From Deltaproteobacteria bacterium (GTDB lineage Bacteria > Myxococcota > Myxococcia > Myxococcales > SZAS-1), in NCBI GenBank assembly GCA_018266075.1, contig JAFEBB010000047.1:1-60344 (forward strand): a stretch of 60,344 nucleotides of DNA, read 5' to 3'. The notes below the pieces were generated by a model that was not told where the DNA came from, did not search any database, and saw only the letters and a list, made by a program, of their open reading frames with translations. Made by a program: the position numbers and the translations under genes. This document shows, piece after piece, positions 1,898 to 7,519 of the stretch. Numbering within the stretch: the stretch's first letter is position 1; every line of letters begins with the position of its first letter.

Positions 1898-2524
1898 TCA
1901 GTAGCTGGTGAGCCGCAGCGGCGCGGCGGCCTGGGAGCCGGCGTCGTCGACGGGCGTCTGAACGTTGTCGTTGGCCACAGCCTGGGTATGGCAGCCGTTG
2001 CAGTCGCCGTTGAGCGGGCCGTAGCCGGCGTTCGGAGGCGGGCCGCTGCCGCGCCAGCCGATGGTGGCACCCGCGTCGCCGATGCGGTTCAGGCCCATCC
2101 ATTCCCAGCCGTGCGCGCCGTGCATGTAGCCGCCATCCGGATAGCCGCCGTCGACGTCGGGGTTGAAGCCGCCGCCGCGTTTGACCATGGCGTCGATGGT
2201 GAGGCCCGCGTGGATGCCGAACGTCTGGCTCTCTTTCACGAAGATGGTGCCGAGCGGCCAGGTGGTGCTGCCGTGCGGCGGGAGCTGGTTCACGTAGACG
2301 TAGCGGGTGCCCTCGCCGGTATCGCCGTCGGGGATCGTGACGACGGTCCAGGTGAAGTAGTTCTCGATGTCGGACGTGACGGCCACGAACTCCGGGCCCG
2401 CGTCGACCGGTCCGGCGTCGGCGGGCCCAGCGTCGGTCACCTCGCCCGCATCGGTCGTGGGGTTCGACTTTCCGCTGCACGCGGCGACGAACACCACGCA
2501 CGCGCCAATCGCCAACCGCTTCAT
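1898..2524 (-). CDS. Exported lipoprotein with cytochrome P460-like domain (one haem c site)
   Basis: 208 residues. A lipobox ends at C16 (VFVAAC), so this is a predicted lipoprotein. A short Asp-Ala-Gly linker follows (about 23-41). The rest resembles cytochrome P460 family proteins: a PLGTIFVKES-like strand, a MVKRGGGFNPD segment, and near the C-terminus CNGCH followed by AVAND, the usual haem c attachment and tail of that family. It is the most downstream of four exported-protein genes (after 7481-5094, 5097-3121 and 3117-2569). The spacing of 44 bases from its upstream neighbour fits one transcript. The redox role is inferred from the haem motif; the substrate is unknown. Confidence 0.68.
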   Translation of the reverse strand: MKRLAIGACVVFVAACSGKSNPTTDAGEVTDAGPADAGPVDAGPEFVAVTSDIENYFTWTVVTIPDGDTGEGTRYVYVNQLPPHGSTTWPLGTIFVKESQTFGIHAGLTIDAMVKRGGGFNPDVDGGYPDGGYMHGAHGWEWMGLNRIGDAGATIGWRGSGPPPNAGYGPLNGDCNGCHTQAVANDNVQTPVDDAGSQAAAPLRLTSY

Positions 2525-2568
2525 GATCCCGCTCGCTTTCGACGGCCGGGGTCACTCTACCGCGCCGC

Positions 2569-3117
2569 TCAGAAGGCGAGGAACGCCTGCTCCACGTCGC
2601 CCGCGCCGCAGTCGACCGTCGCCGGCGCCGAGACGTGCAAGAGAATCTGAAGATTTCCGTGCGCCACGGGCGCCGAGGGCAAGCCCGAGACCTCGGTGAG
2701 CGTGAGCTCGAAGCTGCCGGCAGGCACGGCGAGATTTCCCGCGCTGTATTCGCAGCTCGTGGCGCCCACGGCGACGGCGCTCCAGGTTTCGAGCGTGGCG
2801 TCCGTGAAGTCGCCAGCAGTCGGCGCACTCCCGAGGTCCACCTTCACGCGCAGCTGCGCGCCCGCGACGCTCGAGCTTGCCGTCAGCTGCAAGAGCCAGT
2901 CGGTGCCGCTGGTGCCGCCGAGGCTGAGCGTGCCGCAGCCACTGGAGATCGCGGCCTGGTCGCTGAAGTTTCCGGAGAACGTGGCGCTGCACGCCGGCGG
3001 GCCGGCGTCGATGAGCGAGCCCGCGTCGGTGGGACCGGCGTCGCTGTCGTTGGACGCGCTGCCGCTGCAGCCCACGAGCGCGATCGCGATTCCGAAGGTG
3101 ATGGCGAGAGCGCGCAT
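2569..3117 (-). CDS. Putative lipoprotein, unknown function
   Basis: 182 residues with a lipobox ending at C17 (IALVGC) and a DAG-type linker (about residues 26-38). The rest (about 40-182) is rich in Ser, Thr, Leu and Val, looks beta-rich, and has four Cys that could form disulfides. I do not recognise the family. It starts 3 bases after the stop of the cytochrome/propeller gene, so it is almost certainly co-transcribed and may work with the cytochromes around it. Confidence 0.7.
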   Translation of the reverse strand: MRALAITFGIAIALVGCSGSASNDSDAGPTDAGSLIDAGPPACSATFSGNFSDQAAISSGCGTLSLGGTSGTDWLLQLTASSSVAGAQLRVKVDLGSAPTAGDFTDATLETWSAVAVGATSCEYSAGNLAVPAGSFELTLTEVSGLPSAPVAHGNLQILLHVSAPATVDCGAGDVEQAFLAF

Positions 3118-3120
3118 GGG

Positions 3121-5097
3121 TCAGAGCGACTTCAGGTACTCGACGAGGTTGTCCAGATCGTCGTCGCTGAGCGAGGCGGTGTTGCCCATGTGGCCGCGCG
3201 TCTGGATGAGCACGTCGTGCAAGGTCGCGGCGCTGCCGTCGTGCAGGTACGGCGCGGAGTCGTAGACGCCGGTGAGCGAGGGCGTGTCGAACATGCACGC
3301 CGCGCGCGGATCGCCGTTCACGTCCTCGTGCGCGACGTCGGGGAACAGGCCGGTGGTCACGCAGGTGCCCACGTCGTGCAGCACCACGTTGCCTGCGAGG
3401 TCGAGCGTGGGATTGCCGCTGCCGGAGTCGGTGTGGCGCGCGCCCGAGTGGCAGCCAATGCAGCCCACGTCCTGGCTGTGGAAGATGGCGTCGCCCGCGG
3501 CGACCTTCGCGGGATCGGTCGTCGGCGGGATGGGCGCGGGGATGCCGCCGTTCACGTACGCGGCGATGGCGTCGAGCATGGGCGCGAGCAGCGGGTCGTT
3601 GGGATCGAAGTGGCCGCCCTGCTCGACGTTGATCGTGTGCCAGTAGTCCTGCACCTTGTTTCGGTCCGCGGTGCGGAAGAGGAAGCCCGTGCCGATCATG
3701 CCGCCGGCGTTGGTGGGGGTGTCGCGCGGGCCCTGCTCGAAGAGCCAGGTGACCGCGTCGCTGCGGCCCTCGATGTGGCAGGTGGCGCACGCGACCCAGT
3801 GGTTGGTGGTGATGGGCGCTTCGTCGCTGTTGGCCGAGTAGAAGAGGTGCTGGCCCAGGCGAAGCTGCGCGGGCATCGGGTCGTTCGTGGTGAGCGAGAT
3901 GGGATCGCCGTCCACCGCGAGCGCGAGGTCGTCTCCTTCGCGGGTGAGCTGAATGACGGCCACGTCGAGCGTGTTGCGCTCCACGACATACGCGCGCGTG
4001 TCGTCCGGCGCGATCGCGATGCCCTCGGGCAGGTGGCCGGGAAGTGGGCGAAGCAGCGCGGCCTCGGTGTTGCGGTGGGTGTCGACGGCGAGAACGTCCT
4101 CGCTGTCGGCGTCGACCATGAGCGCGAAGTCGCCGTCGTGCGTGAACGCGAGCGCGCGCGGCCCGGACACGATGTCCGCGAGCGCGCCGTCGATGCCGGG
4201 CACATCCTGCGCGTCGGTGGAGAGCTGCTCCACGAGCGTGCCGTCCTGGTGCAGCACCGACAGCGTGGGAAACGCAGTCGACTCGAAGTCGAGCTCGGGC
4301 TGCGCCGTGTCGGTCCCGAGCATCATGTGCACCGTCCACAGGTCGCCGGTGCCGGGCTGCTCCGCGGCGTCGTAGATGCCGCGAACCTGGCCGTGTGCGA
4401 GCCGCTTGTCGCCCCGCGGCGGCACGTCCGGGACCGGCCACGTGGTCACCAGCGAGAAGCTGGATGGATCGATCAACGACACGCCCGGGCCCAGCAGGTG
4501 GGTCACGCGCAGCTCGCCGTCGGTCGACGCTGCGAGCGCCCAGGGCTTCCGCGGGACCGTCGCCGTGGCATCCAGCGTGAGCGAGCCGAGATCGATGCGA
4601 ACGACGCGATCGTCGTTGGAGCACGCGACATACGCATCCCGGCCATCGCTCGAGGCCAAGACGCCCGCGGGCTCGCTGCAGGTTGTTAACGAATCGGTGA
4701 TGTTTCCGGTGGCGACGTCGACCCGGTAGAGCTTGCCGCTGCGCTCGCCGGTGACGAGAACCGTCTTGCCGTCGGGCGTGAGCGCGAGCGCGCGGGGCAT
4801 GACCGAAGGCGTGAACTCGCCGCCATCGGTCGACGCGATCGGGTGCGCGCCGCTGAGCAGCACCTCGTGCGTGAGCTGACGCGTGGCGAGATCCACAATG
4901 GAGATCGAGTCGAGGTCCGGGTTGGCCACGAAGAGCGTGGCGCCGTCGGCCGAGAGCGCGACGGGGCCGGAGTGCGCCGCGATCGGCGTGGGCACCGGCG
5001 AGCCGGCGTCGGGAATCGGCGGCATGGACTTCGGCGGAGACTTGTCGCGGCAGCCGGCGATCAGCGCCAGGGCGAGCAGCAGAGCAGCGCGCCTCAT
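3121..5097 (-). CDS. Lipoprotein: YVTN-type beta-propeller plus di-haem cytochrome c peroxidase-like domain
   Basis: 658 residues from the ATG at 5097. That start gives a clean lipoprotein signal (lipobox IAGC, C16) and overlaps the TGA of the upstream gene as ATGA, which points to translational coupling. Residues about 45-390 carry repeated propeller strands (for example GPVALSADGATLFVANPDLDSISIVDLATRQL). The C-terminal part has two CxxCH haem sites, CATCH and CIGCH. Near the end is the FDTPSLTGVYDSAPYLHDGS segment typical of MauG/CcpA di-haem proteins. It is predicted to be a periplasmic or surface redox enzyme. Members of this superfamily act on H2O2 or on partner proteins; which applies here cannot be read from the sequence. 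Confidence 0.82.
   Translation of the reverse strand: MRRAALLLALALIAGCRDKSPPKSMPPIPDAGSPVPTPIAAHSGPVALSADGATLFVANPDLDSISIVDLATRQLTHEVLLSGAHPIASTDGGEFTPSVMPRALALTPDGKTVLVTGERSGKLYRVDVATGNITDSLTTCSEPAGVLASSDGRDAYVACSNDDRVVRIDLGSLTLDATATVPRKPWALAASTDGELRVTHLLGPGVSLIDPSSFSLVTTWPVPDVPPRGDKRLAHGQVRGIYDAAEQPGTGDLWTVHMMLGTDTAQPELDFESTAFPTLSVLHQDGTLVEQLSTDAQDVPGIDGALADIVSGPRALAFTHDGDFALMVDADSEDVLAVDTHRNTEAALLRPLPGHLPEGIAIAPDDTRAYVVERNTLDVAVIQLTREGDDLALAVDGDPISLTTNDPMPAQLRLGQHLFYSANSDEAPITTNHWVACATCHIEGRSDAVTWLFEQGPRDTPTNAGGMIGTGFLFRTADRNKVQDYWHTINVEQGGHFDPNDPLLAPMLDAIAAYVNGGIPAPIPPTTDPAKVAAGDAIFHSQDVGCIGCHSGARHTDSGSGNPTLDLAGNVVLHDVGTCVTTGLFPDVAHEDVNGDPRAACMFDTPSLTGVYDSAPYLHDGSAATLHDVLIQTRGHMGNTASLSDDDLDNLVEYLKSL
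4687..4700. repeat. Near-match of the TAAC-N6-GTTA palindrome (TAAC-GAATCG-GTGA)
   Basis: One mismatch. It lies in the propeller/cytochrome gene at the codons for Thr-Asp-Ser-Leu-Thr, where it includes a TTA leucine codon, rare in this window. Confidence 0.35.
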
Positions 5098-7481
5098 GGC
5101 TGCACCTTCACGACGTTGAGCGTGATCGAGTCCGCGAGCGCCGCGGGCAGGTGCGCGTCGTCGATCTCGGGCACGCAATCATGCTCGCGGTCGGACGTCG
5201 GCACGCGCGGCACGCCCGGAACGGCGACGTCGGCGAGGCTCCCAATCTCACCCGTGAGCGTGCGCTCGGCCATCTCCAATCCGCCGCGCGGCAAGCCCTG
5301 CACCACGTTCACGCACTCATCGGGCCAATCGACGATGCGGTTGTCATTCGCGTCGTCCCAGCCATTGAGCACGAGCTTGTTGAGCCGACCCACGCGCGAC
5401 TCGAGCTCCAGCGCGAGCGCGCCATTGCCCGGCCGCGAGGCCTCGAGCTCGTACATGTCCCGCAGCGTCGACTGCAGCAGCGCGAAGCGGAGCGGGGTGA
5501 ACGTCACGCTGGTCACGGGCGCGGGCGTCTGGCCGTAGAGCCGCGCGTTCGCGTCGTAGAAGGTCTGCTCGAGCCGCGCGTACACCGCGAGCGCGCGCGT
5601 GCGGTAGCGGGTGTCCCCGGTCGCGAGATACGCGGCGAAGAGCCCGCGGACAGCAGCTGTGTGCGAGTCGAGCAGGTCCTGATCATCGACGTGCGCGTTC
5701 TGTGCGACGTCCCAGCCGCTCCAGGCGCGTCCGGCCTCGTCGGTGAGGTGATTCAGCAACAGGTCGCCCTCGGCGCGGATGAGCACGCCCAGGCGCTGGG
5801 TGAACGTCTGCGAAGCGTCAGCCGCGTGCAGCGGTAGCGTGTCGAGCGGCGTGGTGGCCACGGCGGTATCGGGGGTGTTGTTCGAATACAGCTTCAGCTG
5901 AGACGAGAGCGCGCGCAGCGCGGTGCGCATTCCAATCAGCGCGTAGGCCGCGTCGATGGTGGAAGCCGTCGTGCCGCGCACCGGCGCGCCCGAGCCAAGC
6001 TGCACCGAATCCACGAGCACGCCGGATTGCGGATCGCGATGGATGCGATCGAGATCCACCAAGGCCACGCGAATCATGGCCAGCGCGCGATCGTGAAGCG
6101 TGGGTTCGCCGTCGGCGAGCTGGTCGTCGGCAGGGAAGGGGTCGCCGTCGAAGTAGACCAGCGCGGGCTGCGAGCCGCCGACGTCGAGGTTGGTGGTGTC
6201 GGTGAGCGCGTAGAACGTGCCGTAGCCCGCGGCCATGCCCGAGAGATCGAGCAGGTCGCTGTCGGCCGAAGCGAGCGCGTAGCTCGGCCGCGGAAAGCCG
6301 CTCGAGTCGCTCGACTCGGTCACGCGGATGGCGCTCGGGAACCAGCGCAGCGGAGCCGTTTCGTCGTAGGCGAGTGCGTCGCTCAAGCTCGCGAACCCGG
6401 AGAGCGTGGAGCCGTCGGCCGTCGTCAGCCTGGTGAGCCACTCTTCGGCGCGGTTGTCGACCTCGAGGATGAACATCGCCGCCTGAAAGCCCTCGATGCG
6501 GCTCGAGCCGAGGAACGTTCCGGCCGCGAGCGGCGCGCCCGTGTCGTCCTCGGCGACGATGCTGTTCCCGAGCGCGCCCACGTTGCCGAGGTCGGTGCTT
6601 GCCACGCTGCTCGCGGCGGCTTCGGTCGCGTCGTGCATCACCTGCAGGTAGTTGATGGTCCAGAGCCCGTACTTCCACGCGCTGAAGCCGTCGGCGCCGG
6701 GCGTGATCGTGGGATCGATCTGTGAGGCGCGGTCGCGCAAATGGAGGGTGCTCGCGTCGCACTCGTAGTCGGCGCACAGCAGCTGCCCGCCCGCGCCCGG
6801 GTCGTCGTCGCTGGTGATGGAGCAGGAGAGGGCGACGTCGCCGGTGGGATCGATCGTCGGGTCGAAACTCTTGAATGCGTGCAGCGTGGGCCAGATGCCC
6901 GGCCAGCCCAGCGGCGTGCCCGCATCCGGCTCGAAGACGAACGCGCCCGCGGCGTTGCTCTCCTGGCTGAACTTCCACATCAGCGCGCCCAGTCGCGTCA
7001 CCGAATCGGGCCCGCCGCCGCCATCCGGGCTCACCAGCGGCGCGAACAGCAGCGAGGTGCCCGCGCCCGACTCGAGCGCCACCATGTTCATGGGCTGCTT
7101 CGAGTATTCGTACGACTCGACGCCCGAGGAGAAGCCGGGCAGGTCGATCCACGGGCCACCCGAGAGCGGCGAGGTATCAAAATACAAATCTGCGGGCAGG
7201 TGATCGCGGCTGTAGTTGGTGAGCACGCGGCCCATGGCCTCGGCAAACGGCTCGCCGGAGAGCTGCATCTCCGCGCCGGCCAGGAAGTGCTCGCGCGTGG
7301 TGAAGCGCGTGTCCACGTCGCCGGCGACGATCTTCACGGACTGTGAACCGGCGTCGACCGGCGTGACGCCACCATCGACGGGCGGTGCCGCGGGCGCCTT
7401 CGAGCTCCGACAGCCCACCGGTAGCAGGCCGAGCACCACGAGGGCGGGGAGCGCGCGGAGAGCAGAGCGAAGGCGGTGCAT
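5094..7481 (-). CDS. Large putative lipoprotein, first gene of the cytochrome operon, unknown function
   Basis: 795 residues with a lipobox ending at C24 (LLPVGC) and a short DGG/DAG linker. I do not recognise the family. The central and C-terminal parts contain runs such as YRTRALAVYARLEQTFYDANARLYG, reminiscent of helical-toroid repeats of sugar-processing proteins. That is a weak resemblance only. The gene starts at an ATG 12 bases from the edge of a Fur-box-like palindrome, and its stop overlaps the ATG of the cytochrome gene. Context makes it a likely partner or scaffold for the di-haem protein, perhaps under metal control. Confidence 0.72.
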   Translation of the reverse strand: MHRLRSALRALPALVVLGLLPVGCRSSKAPAAPPVDGGVTPVDAGSQSVKIVAGDVDTRFTTREHFLAGAEMQLSGEPFAEAMGRVLTNYSRDHLPADLYFDTSPLSGGPWIDLPGFSSGVESYEYSKQPMNMVALESGAGTSLLFAPLVSPDGGGGPDSVTRLGALMWKFSQESNAAGAFVFEPDAGTPLGWPGIWPTLHAFKSFDPTIDPTGDVALSCSITSDDDPGAGGQLLCADYECDASTLHLRDRASQIDPTITPGADGFSAWKYGLWTINYLQVMHDATEAAASSVASTDLGNVGALGNSIVAEDDTGAPLAAGTFLGSSRIEGFQAAMFILEVDNRAEEWLTRLTTADGSTLSGFASLSDALAYDETAPLRWFPSAIRVTESSDSSGFPRPSYALASADSDLLDLSGMAAGYGTFYALTDTTNLDVGGSQPALVYFDGDPFPADDQLADGEPTLHDRALAMIRVALVDLDRIHRDPQSGVLVDSVQLGSGAPVRGTTASTIDAAYALIGMRTALRALSSQLKLYSNNTPDTAVATTPLDTLPLHAADASQTFTQRLGVLIRAEGDLLLNHLTDEAGRAWSGWDVAQNAHVDDQDLLDSHTAAVRGLFAAYLATGDTRYRTRALAVYARLEQTFYDANARLYGQTPAPVTSVTFTPLRFALLQSTLRDMYELEASRPGNGALALELESRVGRLNKLVLNGWDDANDNRIVDWPDECVNVVQGLPRGGLEMAERTLTGEIGSLADVAVPGVPRVPTSDREHDCVPEIDDAHLPAALADSITLNVVKVQP

Positions 7482-7492
7482 GGGCTTTCAAC

Positions 7493-7519
7493 TGAAAATG
7501 ATTCTGCGAATCAATATCA
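7493..7519. promoter_or_regulatory. Fur-box-like inverted repeat upstream of the lipoprotein/cytochrome operon
   Basis: Two 12-base arms, TGAAAATGATTC and GAATCAATATCA, flank a TGC centre and match at 10 of 12 positions. The half-site TGA(A/T)AATGATT is close to the known Fur consensus (GATAATGAT and its mirror). The site stands out as AT-rich and lies 12-38 bases upstream of the ATG at 7481, where a bound repressor would block initiation. A related Fur-family regulator (Zur, PerR, Mur) is equally possible. Confidence 0.5.

Follow-up and report, generated by a model that had tools for sequence, protein, structure and literature searches.

Contig JAFEBB010000047.1 of a Deltaproteobacteria bacterium (Myxococcota) holds, within the 60,344-nucleotide (nt) stretch that was analysed and that we call the window, an operon of four lipoprotein-type open reading frames (ORFs), P1 to P4 in order, preceded by a Fur-box-type palindrome (Table 1). 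We propose, at a probability of about 0.5, that this operon encodes a surface or periplasmic iron-handling system that is induced by iron limitation and in which P1 and P2 stand in for an imelysin-DHOR pair. The proposal draws on the layout of the operon, on Fur-type boxes both in the 7.84-Mb source genome (its own genome) and at P1 loci of other lineages, on the co-occurrence of P1 with P2, and on the P4 and porin relatives that P1 loci have in common with imelysin/DHOR loci. We infer with fair confidence that the operon is expressed under iron control and has an iron-related role. A first-pass annotation of the same DNA had suggested outer-surface electron transfer or cofactor maturation; this is not sustained by an operon with just three haem-attachment motifs (CxxCH at 437 and 546 of P2 and at 175 of P4) and no multihaem cytochrome. 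The link to imelysin/DHOR iron operons, which that annotation did not make, favours iron handling over electron transfer.

The four genes are adjacent, exported and tightly spaced in one direction, as first read: the P1 stop overlaps the P2 start (ATGA, 5094-5097), and gaps of 3 nt and 44 nt separate P2 from P3 and P3 from P4, respectively. Ordinary lipoboxes are found in P2 (IAGC16), P3 (LVGC17) and P4 (VAAC16), and that of P1 (PVGC24) is atypical. The palindrome, detected with a repeat finder, has the arms TGAAAATGATTC-3-GAATCAATATCA (7493-7504 and 7508-7519), which are complementary at 10 of 12 positions around a 3-nt loop. Its 12+3+12 geometry had been described correctly, and the distance to the P1 ATG, given earlier as 12 bases, measures 11 nt. 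A single occurrence of the 21-base core was counted in the window, against 0 expected, and the repeat matches the 7-1-7 Fur pattern at 10 of 12 positions in two overlapping registers.

To look for counterparts, a 27-base Fur-type pattern derived from the palindrome was scanned across the own genome with at most three mismatches. Four places were returned, one of them the palindrome in the window, and the reversed pattern, which served as control, returned 0. A 661-residue FTR1 iron permease that includes a cytochrome c domain (PF03239, 1.1e-18) starts at the second site, and a 445-residue porin (PF07396, 1.2e-5) at the third. Since the few related sites elsewhere in the own genome stand before this permease and this porin, we regard the palindrome as very probably a Fur box, at which Fur itself would act, presumably as a repressor; two FUR-family regulators are encoded in the same genome. 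At L028:4858-5412 (C10), the fourth site is separated by 3 nt from the ORF of a 174-residue membrane protein that follows it. A search upstream of other genes, as proposed in the first-pass annotation, thus does find related sites. One more site, on C16, was dropped as a box, as it falls inside called ORFs.

The P1-P2 pair was then followed through a phylum set of 195 genomes and a separate search for related loci. The latter gave 16 P1 loci, all from Myxococcota or 'Deltaproteobacteria' metagenome-assembled genomes by title, and P1 matches are present in seven of the 195 genomes (clear in G000, G003, G019, G023 and G155, distant in G046 and marginal in G160). De-duplication left 20 P1 copies, namely those of the window, L006-L020 (two in L016), the partial L021, L039 and L040. 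Duplicates or parts of counted copies (L001-L003, L029-L033, L041 and L042, with L004 being the same copy as L040) were set aside, as were weak (L005 in G029, L035 in G160) and distant (L034/L036-L038 in G046) matches. P2-like propeller/di-haem proteins are common, with matches in 182 of the 195 genomes, yet matches above 370 bits, partly to contig-end fragments, are confined to the five clear P1 genomes, and no other genome goes beyond 161.8 bits. Moreover, pairwise identities of P1 and of P2 over eight loci are correlated at r = 0.95. Judged by this distribution P1 and P2 are a real unit, since within the set no P2 orthologue was found outside the five clear P1 carriers. The expectation that the genes stay together in other Myxococcota thus holds strictly for P1 and P2 and for all four genes in one other genome (L039 of G155, where they lie on one strand in the order P4-P1-P2-P3 behind a Fur-like box). 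It holds less well for the remainder of the operon: at the same locus, P2 accompanies 12 of the 20 P1 copies (L016 counted once), P3 only five and P4 only three. In another part of the phylum, a distant 659-residue P1 relative (26% identity) was seen in G046 (L038:5683-9326). Elsewhere, P1-P3 of L006 (4537-7803) lie beside a TonB-like gene and an ExbD/TolR-type gene, and our reading of the sequence of this locus adds an ExbB-like gene and the ORF of an outer-membrane beta-barrel.

Fur-like boxes were sought in the 300 bp before P1, or before the lead gene of its operon, at 19 P1 copies (the partial L021, at a contig end, was omitted), requiring at least 10 of the 12 positions of the 7-1-7 pattern. 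Including the window, four of the 19 copies belong to box-led operons: the box precedes P1 itself in L016 (copy a), the porin at the head of the L017 P1 operon, and the lead gene P4 in L039. By comparison, 0.4% of random 300-bp windows from the same loci hold such a site, and over all loci scanned 12 hits of at least 10/12 were seen against 3.4 expected from a first-order Markov simulation (0.4 expected at 11/12 or better); among these 12, the L026-L028 hits lie in loci that had been selected because of their boxes and one, in L038, is unlinked to P1. Any p-value for L017 and L039 would be post hoc, because their lead genes were picked only once the boxes were known. A stricter scan with a consensus of the window palindrome (17/24) found no copy in the related loci. 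The suggestion of Fur-type control gains from the box common to the FTR1 permease and the porin and from the box-led P1 operons of three other lineages; at most other P1 copies no such box was found.

A second line of evidence comes from P4. Its match to the Pfam P460 family (PF16694) is 19.7 bits, below the gathering cut-off of 27, as are those of its relatives (19.3-24.5). Cytochrome P460 structures are matched at 2.3e-4 when a profile built from 12 relatives is used, the CxxCH motif is invariant, and lysine 97, present in 11 of 12 rows, places a GTxxVK motif on the GAILVK lysine of 6hiu, which we take to be the haem cross-link site of cytochrome P460. P4 thus aligns with cytochrome P460 at the CxxCH and the lysine but scores below the family cut-off, and a haem cross-link would be at most a prediction. 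P4 relatives are present in 14 of the 195 genomes, and eight of their loci outside P1 operons were read (L053, L059 and L065-L070). In six of these (L065-L070) an imelysin and a DHOR di-haem protein lie directly ahead of P4, in the order DHOR-imelysin-P4 in five and imelysin-DHOR-P4-porin in L067, whose porin is a relative of the Fur-box porin of the own genome. Six of the eight hold a Fur-like box of at least 10/12, which in L070 sits about 200 nt before the called start; L069 reaches 9 and L059 has none. Most of the operons that unite DHOR, imelysin and P4 are box-led. A relative of the same porin stands in one operon with P1 and P2 in L017, where a cupredoxin-like ORF was also seen.

Imelysin operons that are under Fur regulation and include a di-haem peroxidase form, according to PMC3143127, an established kind of iron-uptake operon, exemplified by P. 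aeruginosa PA4370-PA4373, IrpA and relatives of EfeUOB. The operon described here resembles these imelysin and DUF1111/DHOR operons in its Fur-type box, in its exported proteins and in coupling a large partner with a peroxidase-type di-haem protein, and P4 relatives and the porin are found in both settings. It differs in having no imelysin, in the other predicted fold of P1, in the added propeller of P2 and in the extra P3. In fact, P1 was rejected as an imelysin, with an hhalign probability of 1.2% over 22 signal-peptide columns and no GxHxxE motif. Imelysin is present in 91 of the 195 genomes, including G023, and was not found in G000, G003, G019 or G155; a search of the own genome found no imelysin (PF09375). 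Ten genomes have a P4 match above 90 bits, eight of them with imelysin, and the two without are exactly those with P4 beside P1-P2, a distribution with a chance of 1 in 45 when kinship is not corrected for. DHOR was not found in G155, G003 or G019, and G000 has one elsewhere; the DHOR gene of the own genome (C86) adjoins a KatG-like ORF, as read from sequence, and has no box. A literature search returned no paper on imelysin and P460 together, nor any on FTR1, cytochrome c, iron permease and beta-propeller together.

Under the iron-handling reading, the operon would be repressed by Fur and switched on when iron is short, and P1-P2 would do the job of the imelysin and DHOR (DUF1111) pair of other Myxococcota. 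P2 would be a redox enzyme whose target is iron or P1, and P1 its large partner, which would either bind iron or an iron-bearing ligand or be the substrate protein of P2. P4 would act as an accessory that the two versions share, and P3, a small lipoprotein, would belong to a single P1-P2 lineage. The Fur-controlled porin would admit iron, which the Fur-controlled FTR1 permease would then pass on to the cytoplasm; FTR1 is present in four of the five P1 genomes. These roles for P2 and P1, and the route completed by FTR1 and porin, are put forward with low confidence, and we likewise infer, rather than observe, an outer-surface location, iron as the substrate and the division of labour.

Several observations weigh against this proposal. 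No Fur-like box was found in the 300 bp before P1 in 15 of the 19 copies, nor was any of at least 10/12 found elsewhere in those loci, several of which lie on short contigs, except at L016 copy b, where the box of copy a lies in the same locus. G155, which has all four genes, showed no FTR1. The complementarity with imelysin rests on two genomes, and in G023 P1-P2, P4 and imelysin-DHOR coexist, spread over separate contigs. In five cassettes (L011, L013, L016 copy b, L018 and L019), in none of which a Fur-like box was found, P1-P2 are joined by a membrane protein, c2, with a weak TMEM260 match, and in four of the five by a PRK07208-type flavoprotein, c3. These box-less cassettes mean that P1-P2 may have a more general role, to which iron control was added in some lineages, and the c2/c3 companions of many P1-P2 cassettes suggest glycan or lipid work. 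Finally, the predicted fold of P1 is that of carbohydrate-active toroids. As regards gene order, this second cassette type runs flavoprotein, P1, membrane protein, P2 in L011, L016, L018 and L019, and in part in L013 and L017.

P1 has no Pfam or NCBIfam match, and neither P1 nor P3 has a usable match to either collection, which agrees with the initial impression that both lack a recognisable family; among PDB sequences P1 has no relative, its single row (E 0.16) being chance-like. The structure prediction called for earlier gave an AlphaFold2 (AF2) model of an (alpha/alpha)6 toroid, with a predicted local distance difference test (pLDDT) score of 82.3 and a predicted template modelling (pTM) score of 0.87. 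The model has the same fold as (alpha/alpha)6 toroid enzymes (AGE, GH105, GH76): the best match is cellobiose 2-epimerase (Z 17.6, root-mean-square deviation 2.9 over 344 residues), followed by GH105 (17.1), a DsbH-like protein (15.2) and GH76 (about 14), with many families tied. Taken from a predicted model, this likeness is one of common fold, not of function. Invariant in an 18-row P1 alignment are Cys 220, 241, 723 and 769, many acidic residues, Trp 269, Trp 708 and an NGWDD...EC segment that is possibly a calcium loop.

One could read the P1-P2 core as acting on a surface glycan or glycolipid, with P1 a hydrolase- or epimerase-like toroid, P2 an oxidase and iron control a local addition. 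The epimerase, GH105 and GH76 matches, the c2 and mostly also c3 companions and a BcsZ-like protein near the distant P1 relative in G046 speak for it, but many unrelated enzymes, and a DsbH-like protein too, tie as toroid matches, P1 is hit by no carbohydrate family hidden Markov model (HMM), and box-led operons occur in four lineages, so that we regard it as unlikely.

P2 raises other possibilities. It matches di-haem cytochrome c peroxidases in Pfam and in a PDB profile search, and its second haem domain aligns with the C-terminal haem domain of DHOR (hhalign 98.4%, 1e-14); no Pfam DHOR/DUF1111 (PF06537) match was found, so that the likeness is at profile level only and confined to this domain. 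Hydrazine synthase beta/gamma is similar in both propeller and di-haem domain, which are among the best PDB matches, but hydrazine synthase HMMs score 47-63 bits against cut-offs of 560-1250 and no alpha subunit was recognised in the operon. The haem domains also match the MbnH family (TIGR04039) at 2.1e-13, with 50.1 bits against a curated cut-off of 362.85. MbnH oxidises residues of MbnP, and that system likewise pairs a di-haem enzyme with an exported partner under metal control. P2 might accordingly be a MauG/MbnH-like maturase, using hydrogen peroxide to oxidise residues of P1 (or P3), after which the mature partner would bind a metal, for instance copper or iron, and both the equal pace at which P1 and P2 diverge and the two invariant tryptophans of P1 would suit it. 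We consider this quite unlikely, given that neither P1 nor P3 matches the MbnP family in NCBIfam, that the box is of iron type, and that P2 has a propeller, which MbnH to our knowledge lacks. Still less probable is a role of P2 as a peroxidase that counters oxidative stress while iron is limiting, assisted by the other proteins; its cytochrome c peroxidase matches point that way, but P1 is its constant partner and no stress gene was recognised beside P1-P2 in the loci read. An extracellular electron-transfer conduit is highly improbable, for despite three c-type haem motifs in lipoproteins and a porin in the same operon in L017, neither the operon nor, as far as read, its relatives include a multihaem cytochrome, and the haem domain of P2 is of the peroxidase/DHOR kind.

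P3 has a single NCBIfam row of 6.7 bits. The AF2 model, likewise called for at the outset, is all-beta and of moderate confidence (pLDDT 72.5), and its fold matches are weak, with nothing under a Foldseek E of 0.45 and VIA Z scores, near chance level, of 8.4 to LpqH and 8.1 to Ail. An identification as an MbnP-type four-Cys protein was rejected, with no NCBIfam support and near-chance fold matches. Structures of MbnP, imelysin and P460 are absent from the fold-search results for the P1 and P3 models, which excludes nothing. P3 relatives adjoin P1 in L006, L007, L012 and L039, and among the 195 genomes P3 was found only in G000 and G155. A weak P3 paralogue in the own genome (L061:6003-6587, C45) directly follows an ORF that reads as a ZIP-family metal transporter.

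Table 1. Features of the operon in the window (columns: feature, position, strand, evidence)
P1, exported 795-residue protein, probably a lipoprotein, (alpha/alpha)6 toroid by prediction, with four invariant Cys; new family	5094..7481	-	ORF, 18-row alignment, AF2 model, fold search
P2, 658-residue lipoprotein, YncE/lactonase-type beta-propeller plus di-haem CCP/DHOR-type domain	3121..5097	-	Pfam/NCBIfam, PDB profile search, alignment with P1-linked orthologues, DHOR profile match
P3, 182-residue lipoprotein, predicted small all-beta, four Cys after lipid Cys	2569..3117	-	ORF, relatives beside P1, AF2 model, weak fold matches
P4, 208-residue cytochrome P460-like lipoprotein, one CxxCH, GTxxVK lysine	1898..2524	-	sub-cut-off Pfam P460, profile of 12 relatives, relatives in imelysin/DHOR operons
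Fur-box-type palindrome, 12+3+12, 11 nt upstream of P1 start	7493..7519	-	inverted repeat, related sites in own genome, 7-1-7 Fur pattern

Scans for promoters and terminators near the operon found no promoter and no clear terminator. The divergent neighbour, ATCase-like as read from sequence, begins 114 nt past the far end of the palindrome.

We tentatively suggest, as an idea somewhat short of even odds, that P1 founds a new extracytoplasmic iron-handling family on the (alpha/alpha)6 toroid, and that with its propeller/di-haem partner it non-homologously replaces imelysin-DHOR, the core of a widespread iron-uptake system, beside the same P460-like protein. In Myxococcota the Fur regulon is hardly mapped, and a passage of PMC9738627 states that the Fur regulon of Myxococcus xanthus has not been identified. 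The biochemical functions of imelysin and its di-haem partner are themselves described as poorly understood in PMC3143127. If our proposal is true, P1-P2 would be an unrelated pair that fills the imelysin-DHOR slot of the operon and keeps both the P460-like companion and the box type, so that one could ask, by comparing the two versions, which chemistry they have in common.

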